From: Clostridia bacterium | Lineage (GTDB): Bacteria; Bacillota; Clostridia; Christensenellales; Christensenellaceae | Reading direction: 5' to 3' | Length of the DNA: 34,296 nt | Assembly: GCA_014805015.1 (NCBI GenBank) | Contig: JAAUYQ010000005.1 | Coordinates: 1-34,296, forward strand | Shown: positions 10,230 to 27,940 of the stretch, in pieces | Position numbering within the stretch: the stretch's first letter is position 1 | Layout of the letters: every line of letters begins with the position of its first letter | Made by a program: the position numbers and the translations under genes | The notes under the pieces: model-generated | Database searches by the model: none | Seen by the model: the letters and a program-made list of their open reading frames with translations, nothing else | What the model was told of the DNA's origin: nothing

Positions 10230-10570
10230 ACCGGGCATGGGCATTATCCGGGCGGCAAAAGCCCGCTGTGCGCTTGGTAGCGCGAGGCGCCAGCTGAAGA
10301 CAGAGATGTCTGTCGTGAGGCAGGATCTGAAGGAAGCCGCATGGGACGCGGTGAAACGTGTCCTGAGCAAAGCTCCGGACTGACGGACAGAAACCAGATC
10401 TGAAGTCGTTTTCGGACGGGAAAGTCTGCTTAACAAGATGAAGCCCGACCCTACACAGAATCCGGAGGCGTAAATCTGTTAGGCAGATGGAGCGAAAGAT
10501 AATGTTCTCGCCCAGGGAGGTATGTCTGCGGGTTGAAGCGTATGCCTCTGAAAAACAGCCGACGGCCCTG
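10230..10570 (+). other. non-coding stretch, possible group II intron 5' fragment
   Basis: There is no convincing gene between the leuD terminator and the Rpn-like gene. The stretch around 10437-10540 (AAGCCCGACCCTACACAGAA, then ATGGAGCGAAAG, then CGCCCAGGGAGGT) resembles, from memory, the RNA leader region of bacterial group II introns that precedes the reverse-transcriptase ORF. No reverse transcriptase follows. Low confidence. Confidence 0.25.
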
Positions 10571-19922: not shown

Positions 19923-19941
19923 CCCAAATCATGCTGTTGTG

Positions 19942-19963
19942 TGCTATGATCCGTATATCATAG
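19942..19963 (+). promoter_or_regulatory. extended -10 promoter inside a perfect palindrome
   Basis: TG at 19942-19943, one base, then TATGAT (19945-19950) form an extended -10 element. The box is the left arm of a perfect dyad, CTATGAT (19944-19950), 6 bp, ATCATAG (19957-19963), which would place a bound protein over the transcription start. It is the likely promoter/operator of the repeat-HTH gene at 20061. Confidence 0.55.
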
Positions 19964-20060
19964 GAATCAACAGTCTGAACAAGACAGGGATGGAGAGGAT
20001 GAGACGCTGGCGGGATGCGGGAACGCCAGAGGCACCTTCACAGGGAGGAGAGCATCACGA

Positions 20061-20954
20061 ATGGGTGGTAAGGCATTCGATCAGGAGGAGGCTAAGCGGC
20101 TGTATGATGCCGGCAAATCGGATACCGAGATCGGCCGGGAACTGCATGCCTCGGTAGGCGCAGTGGGCCGCTGGCGAAAGGCCAATGATCTGCCGGCGCA
20201 GAAACCCCGGACGCGCCGCACATGGGACGTCGACAAGGCACTGGAGCTCTATCAGCAGGGACTGTCGGATGATCTGATCGGTGAGCAGGTCGGCACGACT
20301 GCCCAGGCAATTCATAACTGGCGCAACAGCCAGAAACTGCCGCCGCATCCGCGCAAGCGCTGGAGCCGGGACGAAGCAAGAAATCTGCTGGCAGAGGGAC
20401 TCTCGGATGAAGAGATTGCCCAGCGGCTCGGAACCACAACCAACGCCATCACCTGCTGGCGGTTTGGCGGCGGTGTCAAGGCGGCCGCAGCGCCGCGCTG
20501 GGATGTTGAGCGGGGTCGTGCCCTCTATGAGCAGGGTCTGACGGACCGCAAGATTGCCGCGGAGATCGGGGTGAGCGCCAAGACCTTCGGTGACTGGCGC
20601 CGCCGGAACAAGCTGCCGCCGAACCGGGTGGTTCCCTCCGGTCCGACCCGCAAGTGGGACACGGAGAAAGCACGCGAGCTGTACGAGGAAGGGTACAGCG
20701 ACCAGGAGATTGCAGAGCGGATCGGCACGACTCTGGCCGCAGTCGCCGCGTGGCGGCGTGAGAACGGCTACATCAAGGGAGCCCGCAAGCGCACCTGGGA
20801 CACCGAAAAAGCCAAGCAGCTTCTGGAAGAAGGCTACTCCGACCTGGAAATCGCCGAGGAGGTCGGCACCACCAAAGGTGCAGTCTGTGCCTGGCGCCGG
20901 CTGAGCGGACTCGGCAAGCCCGGCAAGGGCAGGAAGAAGCGCTCTGCAGAGTAA
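20061..20954 (+). CDS. protein of six tandem helix-turn-helix modules
   Basis: All 297 residues are occupied by six degenerate repeats of 46-52 residues beginning at about residues 6, 55, 101, 147, 199 and 246. Each repeat follows the plan W-D-x2-K-A-x-x-L-Y-E-x-G-x-S-D-x-E-I-A, then I-G-T-T (turn), x-x-A-V-x-x-W-R (recognition helix), and a short basic or proline-rich linker. The invariant Trp of the recognition helix recurs at 38, 87, 133, 179, 231 and 278. The modules resemble the HTH of resolvases, small terminase subunits or sigma region 4. There is no catalytic, ligand or membrane domain. GGGAGGAG (20042-20049) precedes ATG 20061. It probably binds long or repeated DNA sites. I do not know a named family with this architecture, and the function is open. 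Confidence 0.88.
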   Translation: MGGKAFDQEEAKRLYDAGKSDTEIGRELHASVGAVGRWRKANDLPAQKPRTRRTWDVDKALELYQQGLSDDLIGEQVGTTAQAIHNWRNSQKLPPHPRKRWSRDEARNLLAEGLSDEEIAQRLGTTTNAITCWRFGGGVKAAAAPRWDVERGRALYEQGLTDRKIAAEIGVSAKTFGDWRRRNKLPPNRVVPSGPTRKWDTEKARELYEEGYSDQEIAERIGTTLAAVAAWRRENGYIKGARKRTWDTEKAKQLLEEGYSDLEIAEEVGTTKGAVCAWRRLSGLGKPGKGRKKRSAE

Positions 20955-21792: not shown

Positions 21793-22812
21793 ATGAAGAC
21801 AATTCCGACGACGGAGAGCGAAGGCTGCATTCTCTGTCACGATGTGACCCGTATTGTACGGGGCGAGACCAAGGGGCCGGCCTTCCGCAAAGGACATATC
21901 ATCAGGGCGGAGGACATTCCGGTGCTGCTCAGCATGGGCAAGGACCGGATCTATGTCTGGGAAGAGGATCCGGATCTGCTGCATGAAAATGACGGTGCCG
22001 AGATTCTGCGGGAGCTCACGCAGGGCGAGAATCTGAGCGCCACTGCGCCTTCTGAAGGCAAGATTGATCTTGTGGCCGAAACCGACGGCCTGCTCCTTGT
22101 GGACAGCGAACGGCTGCGGGCTCTGAACGGTCTTGGCGAAATGATGGTCGCGACCAGGAAGGGCGGCTTCCCTGTACGTAAGGGCGACAAAGTGGCCGGA
22201 ATGCGCGTTATTCCGCTTGTCATTGCCCGGGACAAAATGGAAAGCGCCCGCCAGGCGGCGGGATCCGAGCCGCTTGTGCGCGTGGTGCCGTTCCCCGTGC
22301 GCCGGTGCGGCGTCATTTCCACCGGGAATGAAGTATACTATGGAAGGATAGAAGATACGTTCACACCGGTGATCGAGGAGAAGCTTGCTGAATACGGTGC
22401 AGTTGTCTCTGAGCAGGTGAAGCTGCCGGACGATCCGGCACAGATCACGCAGACAATCAACAGGATGCTGCAGGACGGTCTTGACATGGTGATTGTGACC
22501 GGCGGCATGAGCGTCGATCCGGATGACCGAACGCCGCTTGCCATCCGCTCAAGCGAGGCAGATGTGGTGAGCTACGGAGCCCCGGTGCTGCCGGGCGCGA
22601 TGTTTCTGCTCGCATATACCGGAGACGGCCGGCCTGTAGTCGGACTGCCGGGCTGCGTAATGTATTCAAGACGGACCATTTTTGACCTGGTGCTGCCCAG
22701 CCTTATTGCCGGGATGCCGGTGAGCCGGGAGCAGCTTGTCGGTTACGGGGAGGGCGGACTGTGCCTGCAGTGCGGCGAGTGTACATTCCCTAACTGCGCA
22801 TTCGGGAGGTAA
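21793..22812 (+). CDS. MoeA/MogA-like molybdopterin-binding protein with Cys-rich tail
   Basis: The 339-residue protein carries an N-terminal MoeA-like region (from GCILCHDVTRI; GPAFRKGHIIRAEDIP) and a MoCF/MPT-binding domain (about 175-315) with GVISTGNEVYYGRI, DMVIVTGGMSVDPDDRTP and VVGLPGC. It is shorter than classical MoeA (about 400) and ends with four cysteines spaced C-x2-C-x2-C-x4-C (residues 324, 327, 330, 335), suited to a metal or Fe-S site. It probably acts in molybdate insertion or molybdopterin handling. The ribosome site is weak. It is the first gene of a seven-gene molybdenum operon, 80 bp from the divergent tRNA. Confidence 0.85.
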   Translation: MKTIPTTESEGCILCHDVTRIVRGETKGPAFRKGHIIRAEDIPVLLSMGKDRIYVWEEDPDLLHENDGAEILRELTQGENLSATAPSEGKIDLVAETDGLLLVDSERLRALNGLGEMMVATRKGGFPVRKGDKVAGMRVIPLVIARDKMESARQAAGSEPLVRVVPFPVRRCGVISTGNEVYYGRIEDTFTPVIEEKLAEYGAVVSEQVKLPDDPAQITQTINRMLQDGLDMVIVTGGMSVDPDDRTPLAIRSSEADVVSYGAPVLPGAMFLLAYTGDGRPVVGLPGCVMYSRRTIFDLVLPSLIAGMPVSREQLVGYGEGGLCLQCGECTFPNCAFGR

Positions 22813-22813
22813 C

Positions 22814-23311
22814 GTGTACAGGGATTTTTCTCACATAGATCATGACGGGAACGTCATCATGGTGGACGTGACCGGCAAAGAACAGACAACCCGCCATGCG
22901 GTCGCGATGGGCTCCATCTTTATGAGCCAGCACTGCTATGATGCGGTGGCGCAGCACACGGTGGAGAAGGGCGACGTGATCGGTGCGGCGCGCATCGCCG
23001 GGATCATGGCCGCCAAGAAAACCAGCGAGCTGATTCCGCTCTGCCACACGGTGGCCATCACCCATGCGGCGCTCGAATTTGACTTTTACCCGGAAGCACT
23101 TGAGATCCGGGCCCAGTGCACTGTTACCTGCAACGGCAGCACCGGCGTCGAGATGGAAGCCCTGACCGGAGTGACGGTGGCTCTTCTGACTATTTACGAC
23201 ATGTGCAAGGCGGCAGACCGCAAAATGGAGATCGGGGAGATCTACCTCGAGGCGAAGTCCGGCGGACGGAGCGGAACCTTCTTTAATGACCGGGCCCACC
23301 GCCGGCATTGA
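22814..23311 (+). CDS. moaC: cyclic pyranopterin monophosphate synthase
   Basis: From GTG 22814 the product has 165 residues, normal for MoaC. It has IMVDVTGKEQTTRHAVAMG, the active-site loop KKTSELIPLCHTVAITHA, STGVEMEALTGVTVALLTIY with the catalytic Lys/Glu/Met region, and DMCKAADRKMEIGEIYL. MoaC turns the MoaA product into cyclic pyranopterin monophosphate. GGGAGG (22804-22809) overlaps the preceding stop and sits 4 nt from the GTG. The frame is open further upstream but lies inside the previous gene. It overlaps moaA by four bases (TTGA). Confidence 0.95.
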   Translation: MYRDFSHIDHDGNVIMVDVTGKEQTTRHAVAMGSIFMSQHCYDAVAQHTVEKGDVIGAARIAGIMAAKKTSELIPLCHTVAITHAALEFDFYPEALEIRAQCTVTCNGSTGVEMEALTGVTVALLTIYDMCKAADRKMEIGEIYLEAKSGGRSGTFFNDRAHRRH

Positions 23312-24270
23312 AAGATTCTTTCGGCCGCAGCATTGATTACCTGCGTCTCTCGCTGACGGACCGCTGCAACCTGCGCTGCCGCTACTGCCAGCCCGTAGAC
23401 GGCCCCTACCAGCCGGCAGCGGATCTGCTGAGCCGCGAGGAGCTTCTGCGGGTCTGCCGCGCTGCAGCAGCCCTCGGCATCACCAATTTCAAGGTAACCG
23501 GCGGTGAACCTCTTATGCGGGCAGATGCGCTGGATTTTATCCGTGATCTCAAGCGTCTCGACGATGTGCGCACCGTAACGCTCACAACGAACGGCCAGCT
23601 GCTCAGTCCCGTGCTCGAAGATCTGGCAGCTATTCCCATTGACGCCATAAATGTCAGTCTGGATGCTGTTTCAGAACCCCTCTACGAACGCATCTGCGGC
23701 CGGCCGGGTGCCGCGCGGGTGCTTGAGGCAGTCCGCCGGAGTGCGGCCCTCGGCATTCACACCAAAGTCAACACAGTGCTCCTGGAGGAAAACAGCTCGG
23801 AGTGGCTCGACATCCTTGGACTTGCCGCGTCGCTTCCAATCGATGTACGCTACATAGAGCGGATGCCCGTCGGAACCGTGCATGCAGCAGAACCTGTTGT
23901 CCCGGGAAACGTTATCCTTGTGCGAGGACAACGGGTCTATCCGGACCTGCATCCGGCGGCCGGCGGACGCGGCAACGGACCTGCCAGGTATTACGAGAGC
24001 AATGCTCTCAGGGGCCGGCTTGGCATCATTGCGGCGAACTCGGAGCCTTTCTGCGCGCAGTGCAATCGTCTGCGGATTACCAGCACCGGTCAGCTGCGCC
24101 CGTGTCTCGGTCAGCCGGGCGGCACAGACCTGCGCTCCGCGCTTCGGGGCGGGGCAGGCAGCGAAGAGCTCGAAGAACTGCTGCGCGGAGCTATTGCGGC
24201 GAAGCCGGCAGGACATGATTTTGGAAGCGGCATCAACCCCGCCCGGCGCATGAATGAGATCGGCGGCTGA
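23308..24270 (+). CDS. moaA: GTP 3',8-cyclase (radical SAM)
   Basis: The 320-residue enzyme uses S-adenosylmethionine and two Fe-S clusters to cyclise GTP, the first step of molybdenum cofactor synthesis. The radical-SAM motif is TDRCNLRCRYC (Cys20, 24, 27). FKVTGGEPLMR follows. The C-terminal cluster is FCAQCNRLRITSTGQLRPCL. The normal C-terminal double glycine is present (IGG). The start is TTG at 23308, overlapping the moaC stop, with no separate ribosome site, so translation is coupled. The stretch at residues about 190-220 is compressed relative to typical MoaA, which might reduce length slightly. Confidence 0.94.
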   Translation: MKDSFGRSIDYLRLSLTDRCNLRCRYCQPVDGPYQPAADLLSREELLRVCRAAAALGITNFKVTGGEPLMRADALDFIRDLKRLDDVRTVTLTTNGQLLSPVLEDLAAIPIDAINVSLDAVSEPLYERICGRPGAARVLEAVRRSAALGIHTKVNTVLLEENSSEWLDILGLAASLPIDVRYIERMPVGTVHAAEPVVPGNVILVRGQRVYPDLHPAAGGRGNGPARYYESNALRGRLGIIAANSEPFCAQCNRLRITSTGQLRPCLGQPGGTDLRSALRGGAGSEELEELLRGAIAAKPAGHDFGSGINPARRMNEIGG

Positions 24271-24311
24271 AAGAGCGGCAGGTGCGGCCGTTTCCAAGGT
24301 GTGCCGCCATG

Positions 24312-24335
24312 CGTTATCCTCAGGCGAGGATAACG
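24312..24335. promoter_or_regulatory. perfect dyad resembling a ModE operator
   Basis: CGTTATCCT (24312-24320), six bases, AGGATAACG (24327-24335) is a perfect 9-bp inverted repeat. Its outer arms have the form CGTTAT-N12-ATAACG, the same arms and spacing I recall for the E. coli modA ModE site. It sits in the only sizeable gap (93 bp) in the molybdenum operon, before the MOSC-MoaB gene. Confidence 0.5.
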
Positions 24336-24363
24336 AAAAGCACGTGAACAGGAGGAGAGTCCA

Positions 24364-25278
24364 ATGGGACGAATCTGCGCACTCTGCATCAGCGAAAACA
24401 GAGGAACCGTTAAGAAACCGGTCTGCAGCGTCCGGGCCGTGGAGGATTTCGGGCTTGAAGGAGACGCACATGCCGGCCGCTGGCACCGGCAGGTGAGCCT
24501 GCTTGGTGCGGAGGAGGTGGCGGCATTCAGGGCCCGCGGCGCGGATGTGCAGGAAGGAAGCTTTGGGGAGAACATTGTGGTGGAAGGCTTCGACCTTCCC
24601 GGTCTGCCTGTTGGAAGTCTGCTTCGGAGCGGGGACGTTCTGCTCGAAATAACGCAGATCGGGAAGGAATGCCACCAGCACTGCGCCATTTACCAGGCTG
24701 TGGGTGACTGTATCATGCCGCGCTGCGGCGTCTTTGCCCGCGTTCTGCGCGGCGGAGACCTGCACGTGGGTGACGAAATCTCCCGGCTGTACCGCACAGC
24801 CGTGATTACCCTGTCGGACAGCTGCAGCCGGGGAGAGAATGAGGACAGAAGCGGTCCGGCCATCTGCGAATGCCTCGAAGCAGACGGCCGCTATAAAGTG
24901 GCCAGGACGCTGCTGCTTCCGGATGAGCCTGAGCAGCTCACGGCGGAGCTTTGCCGGCTGGCTGACGAAGAGAATATGGACCTCATCCTGACGACCGGCG
25001 GCACAGGCTTCTCGCCGCGGGACCGGACGCCGGAAGCGACGCTCGAGGCAGCGGACAGGCTGGCTCCCGGCATTGCCGAGACCATCCGCGCCGAGTCACT
25101 GAAGATTACGCCGCGTGCCATGCTGTCGCGGGGGGTAAGTGCCCTTCGGGGCGCTGCTCTCATTATCAACCTTCCCGGCAGTCCCAAAGCGTGCCAGGAG
25201 AGTCTCGGTGTTATTCTGGATACGCTTCCGCACGGGCTGGATCTGCTGCGCGGGCAGAGCGGACAGTGTGCGCGCTGA
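24364..25278 (+). CDS. MOSC domain fused to MoaB/MogA-type domain
   Basis: Residues 1-140 form a MOSC domain (moco sulfurase C-terminal type): VEDFGLEGDAHAGRWHRQVS, GSFGENIVVEGF, and a Cys region IGKECHQHCAIYQ. Residues about 143-304 form a MoaB/MogA domain: AVITLSDSCSRGENEDRSGP, LILTTGGTGFSPRDRTPEAT, and INLPGSPKACQESL. MoaB/MogA adenylates molybdopterin. MOSC domains bind sulfur or carry it to Mo/pterin products. AGGAGGAG precedes ATG 24364 by 8-9 nt. The gene lies 93 bp after moaA and 44 bp before modA. Confidence 0.9.
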   Translation: MGRICALCISENRGTVKKPVCSVRAVEDFGLEGDAHAGRWHRQVSLLGAEEVAAFRARGADVQEGSFGENIVVEGFDLPGLPVGSLLRSGDVLLEITQIGKECHQHCAIYQAVGDCIMPRCGVFARVLRGGDLHVGDEISRLYRTAVITLSDSCSRGENEDRSGPAICECLEADGRYKVARTLLLPDEPEQLTAELCRLADEENMDLILTTGGTGFSPRDRTPEATLEAADRLAPGIAETIRAESLKITPRAMLSRGVSALRGAALIINLPGSPKACQESLGVILDTLPHGLDLLRGQSGQCAR

Positions 25279-25322
25279 TATAAGGCAGATGATCTGCCTT
25301 CCTGTAATTCCTGGAGGGACTT

Positions 25323-26219
25323 ATGATGAGAAAACTGCTTATGATTGCTTTGTGCCTGCCGCTCGGACTTCTGGCGGGCTGTTCTGCAGGGACAGAAGCT
25401 GCACAGACGGCTGCAGCCAGTCAGGGAGCCGCGGCGTCTGGCAGCCAGGCGGCGGCTGAAACGGCTGATCAGGCAGAGAGCGGCCAAACCGAAGTGATTG
25501 TCTTTGCTGCTGCCAGCATGCAGGAGACACTCACCGAGATTCAGGAACTGTACAAGGTGCAGGCACCGGATACAGAGGTAGTCTGCAATTTTGATTCTTC
25601 GGGCACACTCAAGAGGCAGATTGAAGAGGGTGCACCCTGTGATGTCTTTATTTCAGCGGCACAGAAGCAGATGAACCAGCTGGATGACGGTGAGGACGGC
25701 GAGGAAGGTCTGCATCTGATCGATCCGGCTACGCGGGTGAACCTACTGGAAAACAAGGTGACGCTGGTCGTTCCGGAAGGAACCCCGGCTGGCATTACGA
25801 TTTTTGAGGACCTCGCAGACAAACTGAAAAACGACGAGATCCTGGTGGCTGTCGGCAACAGCGATGTGCCGGTCGGCCAGTATACGCAGCGCATCTTCGA
25901 GTTCTTTGGTCTCGATGAACAGCGGCTCGCGGATGCCGGCAGACTCAGCTACGGGACGAACGTCAAGGAAGTGACGACGCAGGTCTCTGAAAACAGTGTA
26001 TCCTGCGGCATTATCTACGCCACGGACGCGTTCAGCGCAGATCTCGAGATTGTGGCGGAAGCGACCCCTGAGATGTGCGGACAGGTTATCTACCCGGCGG
26101 CGGTGCTTGAAGCGGCCCAGGACAAAGCGGCGGCAGAGGCGTTACTCGACTATCTGCAGACGCCGGAAGCCATGGCTGTCTTTGAGAGTGTAGGGTTCTC
26201 GCCGGCAGTGCAGGAATAG
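25323..26219 (+). CDS. modA: molybdate ABC transporter substrate-binding lipoprotein
   Basis: The precursor (298 residues) has a lipoprotein signal with lipobox LLAGC (Cys20), then an Ala/Gln/Ser-rich linker to about residue 57. The binding domain begins VIVFAAASMQETLTEI and continues with NFDSSGTLKRQIEEGAPCDVFISAA, NKVTLVVPEG and VGNSDVPVGQYTQ, all characteristic of ModA. It captures molybdate (or tungstate) outside the membrane for ModBC. GGAGGG (25314-25319) precedes ATG 25323. A second ATG follows at once. Confidence 0.94.
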   Translation: MMRKLLMIALCLPLGLLAGCSAGTEAAQTAAASQGAAASGSQAAAETADQAESGQTEVIVFAAASMQETLTEIQELYKVQAPDTEVVCNFDSSGTLKRQIEEGAPCDVFISAAQKQMNQLDDGEDGEEGLHLIDPATRVNLLENKVTLVVPEGTPAGITIFEDLADKLKNDEILVAVGNSDVPVGQYTQRIFEFFGLDEQRLADAGRLSYGTNVKEVTTQVSENSVSCGIIYATDAFSADLEIVAEATPEMCGQVIYPAAVLEAAQDKAAAEALLDYLQTPEAMAVFESVGFSPAVQE

Positions 26220-26231
26220 CCAAGCTGCGCC

Positions 26232-26894
26232 ATGGACTGGTATCCGCTTCTCAACAGCCTGCGCATTGCCGGCCTGGCCAGTGTCATCGTATTCTTTGCC
26301 GGTATTCTGACGGCCTACTATGTCATCCGACTGCCGCGGCTTATCAAGGGCATCCTGGACGTTATCCTGACGCTGCCGCTGGTGCTGCCGCCGACCGTTG
26401 TGGGATGGCTGCTGCTGCTCGCCGTGGGAGCAAATCATCCGCTCGGAGCGTTCCTCAGTGAGATTGGCATGCCGCTCGTCATGCGCTGGCAGGGCGGTGT
26501 GCTGGCGGCGGCCGTCGTGGCCTTTCCACTGATGTACCGCACGGCCAGAGGTGCGTTCGCATCCTTTGACGAGACGCTTGCCCAGAGTGCCCGCACGCTT
26601 GGGCTCTCCAATACCTACATCTTCTGGCGTATCCGGCTGCCGGTGTGCCGGCAGGGAATTCTGGCCGGCATGGTCCTTGCCTTTGCCCGCGCCCTTGGGG
26701 AATACGGTGCCACGAGCATGCTGATCGGCTACACGCCGGGCCGCACGGCGACTATTTCCACGACGGTATACCAGCTGTGGCGGACCAACCAGGACGGAGC
26801 GGCCATGACCTGGGTTTTCATTAACATCGCGATCAGCGCAGCAGTTCTGGTAACGCTGAACCTGCTGGAGAAAAGGAGGAGTCCGGTGCGATGA
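26232..26894 (+). CDS. modB: molybdate ABC transporter permease
   Basis: The 220-residue membrane protein has about five hydrophobic segments and the permease EAA-type loop around AFASFDETLAQSARTLGLSN, the coupling site for ModC. LPLVLPPTVVGWLLLLAVG is typical of ModB. It forms the membrane channel with ModA and ModC. The ribosome site is weak. The start lies 12 bp after the modA stop, so coupling is likely. The stop overlaps the modC start (ATGA). Confidence 0.93.
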   Translation: MDWYPLLNSLRIAGLASVIVFFAGILTAYYVIRLPRLIKGILDVILTLPLVLPPTVVGWLLLLAVGANHPLGAFLSEIGMPLVMRWQGGVLAAAVVAFPLMYRTARGAFASFDETLAQSARTLGLSNTYIFWRIRLPVCRQGILAGMVLAFARALGEYGATSMLIGYTPGRTATISTTVYQLWRTNQDGAAMTWVFINIAISAAVLVTLNLLEKRRSPVR

Positions 26895-27940
26895 GTCTGG
26901 AAGTGCAGATCCGCAGGAAGCTCGGCAGTTTTGAGCTGGCCATAGACCTTGAGCATCAGGAAGGCAGCACGGCGATTCTGGGTGCCTCCGGCTCCGGCAA
27001 GAGCGTGACTCTGCAGGCCATTGCCGGGGTTCTCCGTCCCGATGCAGGCCGGATCGTGCTGAACGGCCGGGTGCTCTTTGACAGCAGCCGGCATATTGAC
27101 CTGCCGCCCCAGCAGCGCCATGTGGGCTTCCTCTTTCAGAACTACGCACTTTTTCCGAACATGACCGTTCTCGACAATGTGGCCTGCGGTGCCCCGCGCG
27201 GCCTTACGCGCCGTCAGCGGCTGGCTCTTGCTGCCGACTGGATCCGGACAATGCAGCTCGACGGTTTTGAAAGCCGTTATCCCCGGCACCTGTCAGGGGG
27301 ACAGCAGCAGCGGACGGCTCTCGCGCGGGCGCTCATTGGGCAGCCGGAGATCCTGATGCTGGATGAACCCTTCAGCGCGCTCGACGCCCAGCTTCGCGAG
27401 CAGCTGATTCCAGAGCTTCGAAAGCTGCTGGATACCTGGGAAAAAGATGCGCTGCTGGTGACGCACAGCCGGGATGAAGCCTATGAGTTGTGCAGTACGA
27501 TGGCGGTCCTCGATAACGGCCGGCTCGTCCGCTACGGACCCGTGCAGGAAGTTTTCGATAACCCGCAGACGATGGCGGCGGCAGCACTTACCGGGTGCAA
27601 GAACGTGACGCCTGCCTGCAAGGCCGGACCGCACACGGTCTTTGTCCCAGACTGGGGCATCCACCTCGAAACGGCGCGGGCCGTGGAGGATCATCTAAAG
27701 GGGGTCGGCATCCGTGCCCACTATTTTTCTCCAGGTATTGCGGTCAATGCCTTCCCGGTTGAGATTGTGGAAGAGGTTGAAGAACCGTTTGCCTGGATCC
27801 TCAAATTCCGCTATGCAGGGCAGAGCCCGGAGAGCCCGGCCATATGGTGGCGTCTCTCCAAGGATCGTCAGCGCACAAGCCGCCGGGATACGGCCGTGCT
27901 GGGCGTGGAACCCCATGACGTACTGCTGCTGTATACTTAG
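26891..27940 (+). CDS. modC: molybdate ABC transporter ATP-binding protein
   Basis: The 349-residue ATPase has Walker A GASGSGKSV, Q-loop FLFQNYALFPNMTVLDNV, signature LSGGQQQRTALARAL, Walker B EILMLDEPFSALD and H-loop LLVTHSRDEAYEL. A C-terminal extension (about 230-349) corresponds to a regulatory or MOP/TOBE-like domain, although the typical Mop sequence is weak. It powers molybdate uptake. AGGAGG within the end of modB serves as ribosome site. It is the last gene of the operon. Confidence 0.93.
   Translation: MSLEVQIRRKLGSFELAIDLEHQEGSTAILGASGSGKSVTLQAIAGVLRPDAGRIVLNGRVLFDSSRHIDLPPQQRHVGFLFQNYALFPNMTVLDNVACGAPRGLTRRQRLALAADWIRTMQLDGFESRYPRHLSGGQQQRTALARALIGQPEILMLDEPFSALDAQLREQLIPELRKLLDTWEKDALLVTHSRDEAYELCSTMAVLDNGRLVRYGPVQEVFDNPQTMAAAALTGCKNVTPACKAGPHTVFVPDWGIHLETARAVEDHLKGVGIRAHYFSPGIAVNAFPVEIVEEVEEPFAWILKFRYAGQSPESPAIWWRLSKDRQRTSRRDTAVLGVEPHDVLLLYT

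Follow-up and report, generated by a model that had tools for sequence, protein, structure and literature searches.

A six-module helix-turn-helix array protein from a Christensenellaceae bacterium and its variable-module relatives in phages and mobile elements

The array gene and its six modules

We analysed a window of 34,296 nucleotides (the whole stretch of DNA under study) from a gut-type bacterium of the Christensenellaceae. On its plus strand lies a gene for a protein built of tandem helix-turn-helix (HTH) modules, with a likely ribosome-binding site and an imperfect palindrome upstream. The features, in window coordinates, are as follows.

19929..19978, no strand: imperfect palindrome, candidate operator, upstream of the array gene; 22-nt arms, 77% complementary
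20044..20052, plus strand: likely ribosome-binding site GGAGGAGAG, 8 bases before the ATG, read from the sequence
20061..20954, plus strand: six-module HTH array gene, 297 aa, ATG to TAA
20076..20222, plus strand: module 1 and linker, residues 6-54; Phe replaces Trp before helix 1
20223..20360, plus strand: module 2 and linker, residues 55-100
20361..20498, plus strand: module 3 and linker, residues 101-146
20499..20654, plus strand: module 4 and linker, residues 147-198; 57% identity to the only module of L009, a phage-contig locus
20655..20795, plus strand: module 5 and linker, residues 199-245
20796..20951, plus strand: module 6 and basic C-terminal tail, residues 246-297

An earlier note on this DNA had described the protein as six tandem HTH modules filling its whole length, and both a self-comparison and a module HMM bear out this count and extent. 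The modules begin at residues 6, 55, 101, 147, 199 and 246 and are 46-52 residues long. Pairwise identity of their 40-residue cores ranges from 28 to 68%, with modules 5 and 6 as the closest pair, and the mean BLOSUM score of module pairs is 86, where 2000 shuffles reach at most -10. The module HMM finds exactly six domains of 57-68 bits apiece; because it was trained partly on the protein's own modules, these scores define the register and are not an independent detection. Independent detection comes from Pfam HTH_23, which exceeds its own cut-off with five stretches of the protein. The invariant Trp claimed for every module holds for helix 3, where it occurs (as WR) in 6/6 modules, but not for the position preceding helix 1, which is Phe in module 1. 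Basic residues stand immediately before each of modules 2-6; a basic arm before the HTH is typical of arm-plus-HTH proteins such as resolvases.

The protein as a whole is basic (pI 9.6, 56 K+R to 44 D+E) and holds just 2 Cys, both inside modules; no Cys-rich part was found in the open frame upstream of the gene. GC content of the gene is 0.64 and GC3 is 0.74, with only slightly lower values in the neighbouring genes. Domain-model searches of the 297 residues detected no domain other than the HTH modules, in agreement with the earlier view that neither an enzymatic nor a ligand domain is present. Matches to sigma factors are confined to the HTH in region 4 models, and identity as a sigma factor was rejected since no region 2 stands beside region 4. 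Identity as a defence protein was also discarded, the matches being at the level of the HTH only (mad1, 51 bits).

For all module pairs with estimable dS, dN was lower than dS, and the modules therefore appear to be kept at the protein level. Synonymous sites between modules are saturated or close to it, which together with the low dN indicates old copies and rules out recent module duplication by slippage.

AlphaFold2, run with a seven-row alignment, predicts three helices in each of modules 2-6, where the blocks mostly have a pLDDT of 80-95. Module 1 shows its first two helices clearly, while the model of its helix 3 is poor (pLDDT <50 at residues 34-41). The predicted structure is in keeping with the HTH folds read earlier from the sequence. 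The pTM of the whole protein is 0.33, so the folds of the modules are reliable and their mutual arrangement is not, as for beads on a flexible string. A single-sequence model of a four-module relative described below, of lower confidence (mean pLDDT 66), has the three-helix pattern four times. Foldseek of the array model against the PDB returned nothing below 0.001. With VIA-align, a single module matched the GcrA DBD (Z 6.9, rmsd 1.8, 45 aligned) and further Tn3 and gamma-delta resolvase, Mos1 and Pax, the solved matches being mostly DNA-binding HTHs, and a two-module stretch matched the CRISPR-repeat-binding protein 2lvs with Z 4.7. These middling Z values may reflect a common arrangement at most, and a shared fold does not show function. 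The best stretch for Pfam GcrA aligns positions 8-38 of a 155-position model and is not a whole-protein match. The crystal structure 8VD6, entitled CAP Repeat, has repeat units whose sequence resembles that of helices 1 and 2 of the module, but these units are 33 residues long, the sequence match ends before helix 3 and Foldseek gives an E of only 0.015.

Relatives, distribution and genomic setting

The array gene occurs once in its own genome. None of 17 other genomes of the family has it, which speaks against a core function. One family member (G017) encodes a single module; the protein that holds it is 192 aa long and its C-terminal part is different. Among 396 genomes of the order, a protein query at 1e-8 detected a single distant relative, and in the class and phylum genomes searched it detected none; all three sets are samples given a loose first look, and absence from them is no proof. 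Peptide patterns from the window protein alone retrieved no close relatives from genome and viral collections, and a DNA-level search of plasmids did not find the array gene. A profile built from internal modules together with one relative did retrieve further relatives.

The relative from the order (L012, also recorded as L002) is a protein of 288 aa with a Cys-rich start and four modules, and its contig also carries two tyrosine recombinase genes and genes for PcfJ and DUF3102. Module counts vary among the relatives, a point that the earlier note had proposed to check: the module HMM finds one module in L009, L010 and L014, two in L008, three in L013 and four in L012. L008, L009 and L010 (with a matching L011) are IMG/VR loci, L013 is from a Ruminococcaceae MAG, and L014, from an Oscillospiraceae MAG, is without the Cys-rich start. 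This N-terminus, with four invariant Cys, is common to the other five (L008, L009, L010, L012 and L013). In both L009 and L012 the gene lies 3' of a DUF3102-type gene and 5' of an unnamed ORF of similar sequence; therefore, the module number of one kind of gene differs between elements, being one in L009 and four in L012. The gene of the phage relatives is found near replication, partition-type or DUF1492 genes, a setting that would agree with a regulator role and does not show one.

By sequence comparison, the array protein comes closest to proteins from phages and integrative elements whose bacteria are of the Oscillospirales type, and this Cys-HTH family is undescribed. The array protein is an uncommon but real six-module HTH protein related to phage and mobile-element proteins of variable module number. 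It has in common with them a module marked by G13, D16, W33 and R34, all present in 6/6 of its modules, and often an LPPN/LPAN tail. The Cys-HTH proteins have the Cys-rich N-terminus, 1-4 modules and a phage or mobile-element setting, whereas the window protein has six modules, lacks the four-Cys N-terminus and sits among chromosomal neighbours. Because it is without the Cys-rich part, our claim is one of shared module ancestry and not of full family membership, and the protein appears to be a chromosomal relative with six modules and without this part. The earlier note had held the architecture not to be described as such, and a search for a well-characterized counterpart in the open-licence literature on tandem DNA-binding repeats and arrays of HTHs turned up no six-HTH family.

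In a module tree that rests on only 42 columns, with most forks weak, the window modules intermingle with those of phages and mobile elements. Module 1 groups with the second module of L012 (87/78) and module 2 with the single module of L010 (89/83); module 4 falls among the phage-type modules without an exact place, and modules 3, 5 and 6 form a group of their own (93/95). The modules of Bacillus phage PM1 make up a separate clade (98/97), and the PM1 array therefore appears to have expanded independently.

The neighbours of the array gene are genes for TagI, a Zn-dependent PLC and a hexapeptide transferase, a tRNA-Arg and Mo-cofactor genes. The left flank (TyrA, HisC, TagI and PLC) is kept whole or in part in related genomes, where other genes follow PLC, and the MoeA-like gene to the right of the array gene is found in none of the 17 other family genomes; the array gene thus sits at the border between a conserved and a lineage-specific region. 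The Mo-cofactor genes (MoeA-like, MoaC, MoaA) and, after them, a molybdate-type ABC transporter occupy 21793-27940 of the window. Neither an integrase or phage gene nor an attachment repeat lies beside the array gene in the window, and the 3' end of the tRNA-Arg was dropped as an attachment repeat since no direct repeat involving it was found. The gene was presumably acquired from a mobile element. Elsewhere in the window, a group II intron RNA (RF02001) matches 10309-10506 on the plus strand over the full model with 110 bits; no intron-encoded reverse transcriptase is obvious among the long ORFs near it.

Recognition faces and a proposed mode of DNA reading

Across 18 modules, G13, D16, W33 and R34 are unchanged, and the four most variable positions (27, 28, 31 and 32) form one face of helix 3. 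These four were picked from the window modules and then tested on 12 modules from other proteins, where their variability exceeds that of other variable positions (p about 0.001, kinship between modules being ignored) and their ranks are 1, 5, 8 and 2, respectively. The earlier observation that recognition helices differ between modules extends to proteins beyond the window. Such hypervariability would agree with a diversified DNA preference, although drift at exposed sites may account for part of it. In modules 5 (L, A, A, A) and 6 (K, G, C, A) the faces consist mostly of small residues, so that some modules may bind weakly or without specificity.

Since the modules present different recognition surfaces, the protein would most likely lie along one long asymmetric stretch of DNA. 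We propose a monomer-type DNA reader with six homeodomain-like HTH modules, short basic arms and flexible linkers, in which each module would contact its own subsite through its differing recognition-helix surface. Assuming about 8 bp per module, by analogy with Cbp1, the six modules would cover ~50 bp, and occupation of this stretch could lead to repression, masking or modulation of transcription. We give this reading, a monomeric reader that acts by occupancy along one long asymmetric site, a probability of about 0.58; DNA binding, one-module-one-subsite reading and occupancy as the mode of action are what we infer, and the protein is probably a regulator or a DNA-masking protein. The long composite site envisaged in the earlier note has a precedent in Cbp1, which sets its three HTH domains 5' to 3' along one CRISPR repeat (PMC10883916), but no target site was found for the array protein. 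Tandem DNA arrays in the window were set aside as a target, only three short two-copy repeats being present. The chromosome-organizing role that had also been suggested finds no support, as the gene is missing from 17 other family genomes and its relatives are found in phages and integrative elements.

Few palindromes in the window are as strong as the one at 19929-19978, which occurs only once in the genome with up to 3 mismatches allowed. It is a candidate for autoregulation, although binding by a monomeric array should not require a palindrome. Folding of the leader RNA shows nothing unusual (z -1.3).

The basic character of the protein, its flexible linkers and the small residues on the faces of modules 5 and 6 might also suit a nonspecific DNA-coating or nucleoid-type protein, in which six weak modules would sum to avidity and the recognition faces would vary unconstrained. 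However, the excess variability of these faces in the 12 outside modules is not expected from drift alone, and a gene missing from the 17 other family genomes searched does not encode a core nucleoid protein. We therefore regard DNA coating as unlikely.

According to the open-licence literature, DNA readers made only of tandem HTHs are described chiefly for archaeal Cbp1, with three modules. A family of one to six modules with variable faces and repeated independent expansions would provide a new modular DNA-binding series, in which a rule linking module sequence to subsite could be tested directly. It is tempting, if doubtful, to go further and regard the ~47-residue unit as a natural modular DNA-reading repeat, with four exposed helix-3 positions per subsite and phages gaining, losing and swapping modules to tune the length and sequence of the site; were this true, one could decipher the code that links module to subsite and reprogramme it.

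Comparison with known HTH systems

HTH arrays can form the DNA-recognition part of a nuclease. ORF23 of the haloarchaeal virus HJTV-4 (L005:3926-4900) combines four HTH modules with an HNH nuclease, and two modules akin to those of the window lie in an intein-like insertion in the ribonucleotide reductase of Halomarina halobia (L015:7095-12749). The array protein could accordingly be read as what is left of a homing endonuclease, or as its targeting subunit, with the nuclease gone. We consider this very unlikely, because neither the window protein nor its closest relatives have a nuclease domain and dN below dS places the modules under selection, which would still be compatible with a repurposed remnant. 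It is highly improbable that the protein is a phage packaging protein (a terminase small subunit) reading a pac or cos site: it matches the terminase HTH models Terminase_5 (1.7e-20) and phrog_7344, but the L009 contig encodes a separate DNA-packaging protein, gp3, besides its Cys-HTH gene, and there is no terminase gene among the scanned flanking genes in the window.

Cbp1 and Cbp2, the CRISPR-repeat-binding proteins of Crenarchaeota, resemble the array protein in having tandem HTH domains that arose by duplication (three and two, respectively), whereas the window protein is bacterial, has six modules and has no link to a CRISPR array. A Cbp1-like protein coating the CRISPR array of its own genome would fit HTH_Cbp1 being the best NCBIfam match (2.7e-14) and a genome that encodes Cas1 and a 16-repeat array, but the match reaches 53.2 bits where the cut-off is 140, the array, a short one, lies on a different contig, and the relatives occur in phages and mobile elements, leaving this reading highly improbable. 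The CRISPR array itself (L062:8452-9412, contig C53 of the genome) has 16 repeats of CGGTTTACCCCCACGTGTGTGGGGCTGAC and lies beside Cas1 and other cas genes, which are type I-E-like.

The C-terminal regions of TnsD-like proteins of Tn7-like elements form multiple HTH domains (PMC10293859). The window protein differs from TnsD/TniQ in having no zinc-finger/helical TniQ core, and Pfam TnsD scores 28.3 bits on it against a cut-off of 32.4.

Two further proteins come close to the array protein in architecture. WP_216826637, from a plasmid of Euzebya pacifica, has about six tandem HTH modules in 299 aa, but it is only 24.5% identical to the window protein, with different recognition helices; it is annotated as a helix-turn-helix domain-containing protein and nothing more, and no arrays of its type were found in phages at 1e-10. 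Gp19 of Bacillus phage PM1 (K203_gp19), whose gene adjoins one for a RusA-like resolvase, likewise consists of six or seven tandem HTH modules only, but its identity is about 23% and, given the separate clade of its modules, it represents an independent expansion. The PM1 gene (L003:4983-6077) is annotated as an RNA polymerase sigma factor, a name that looks wrong for a protein made only of tandem HTH modules.
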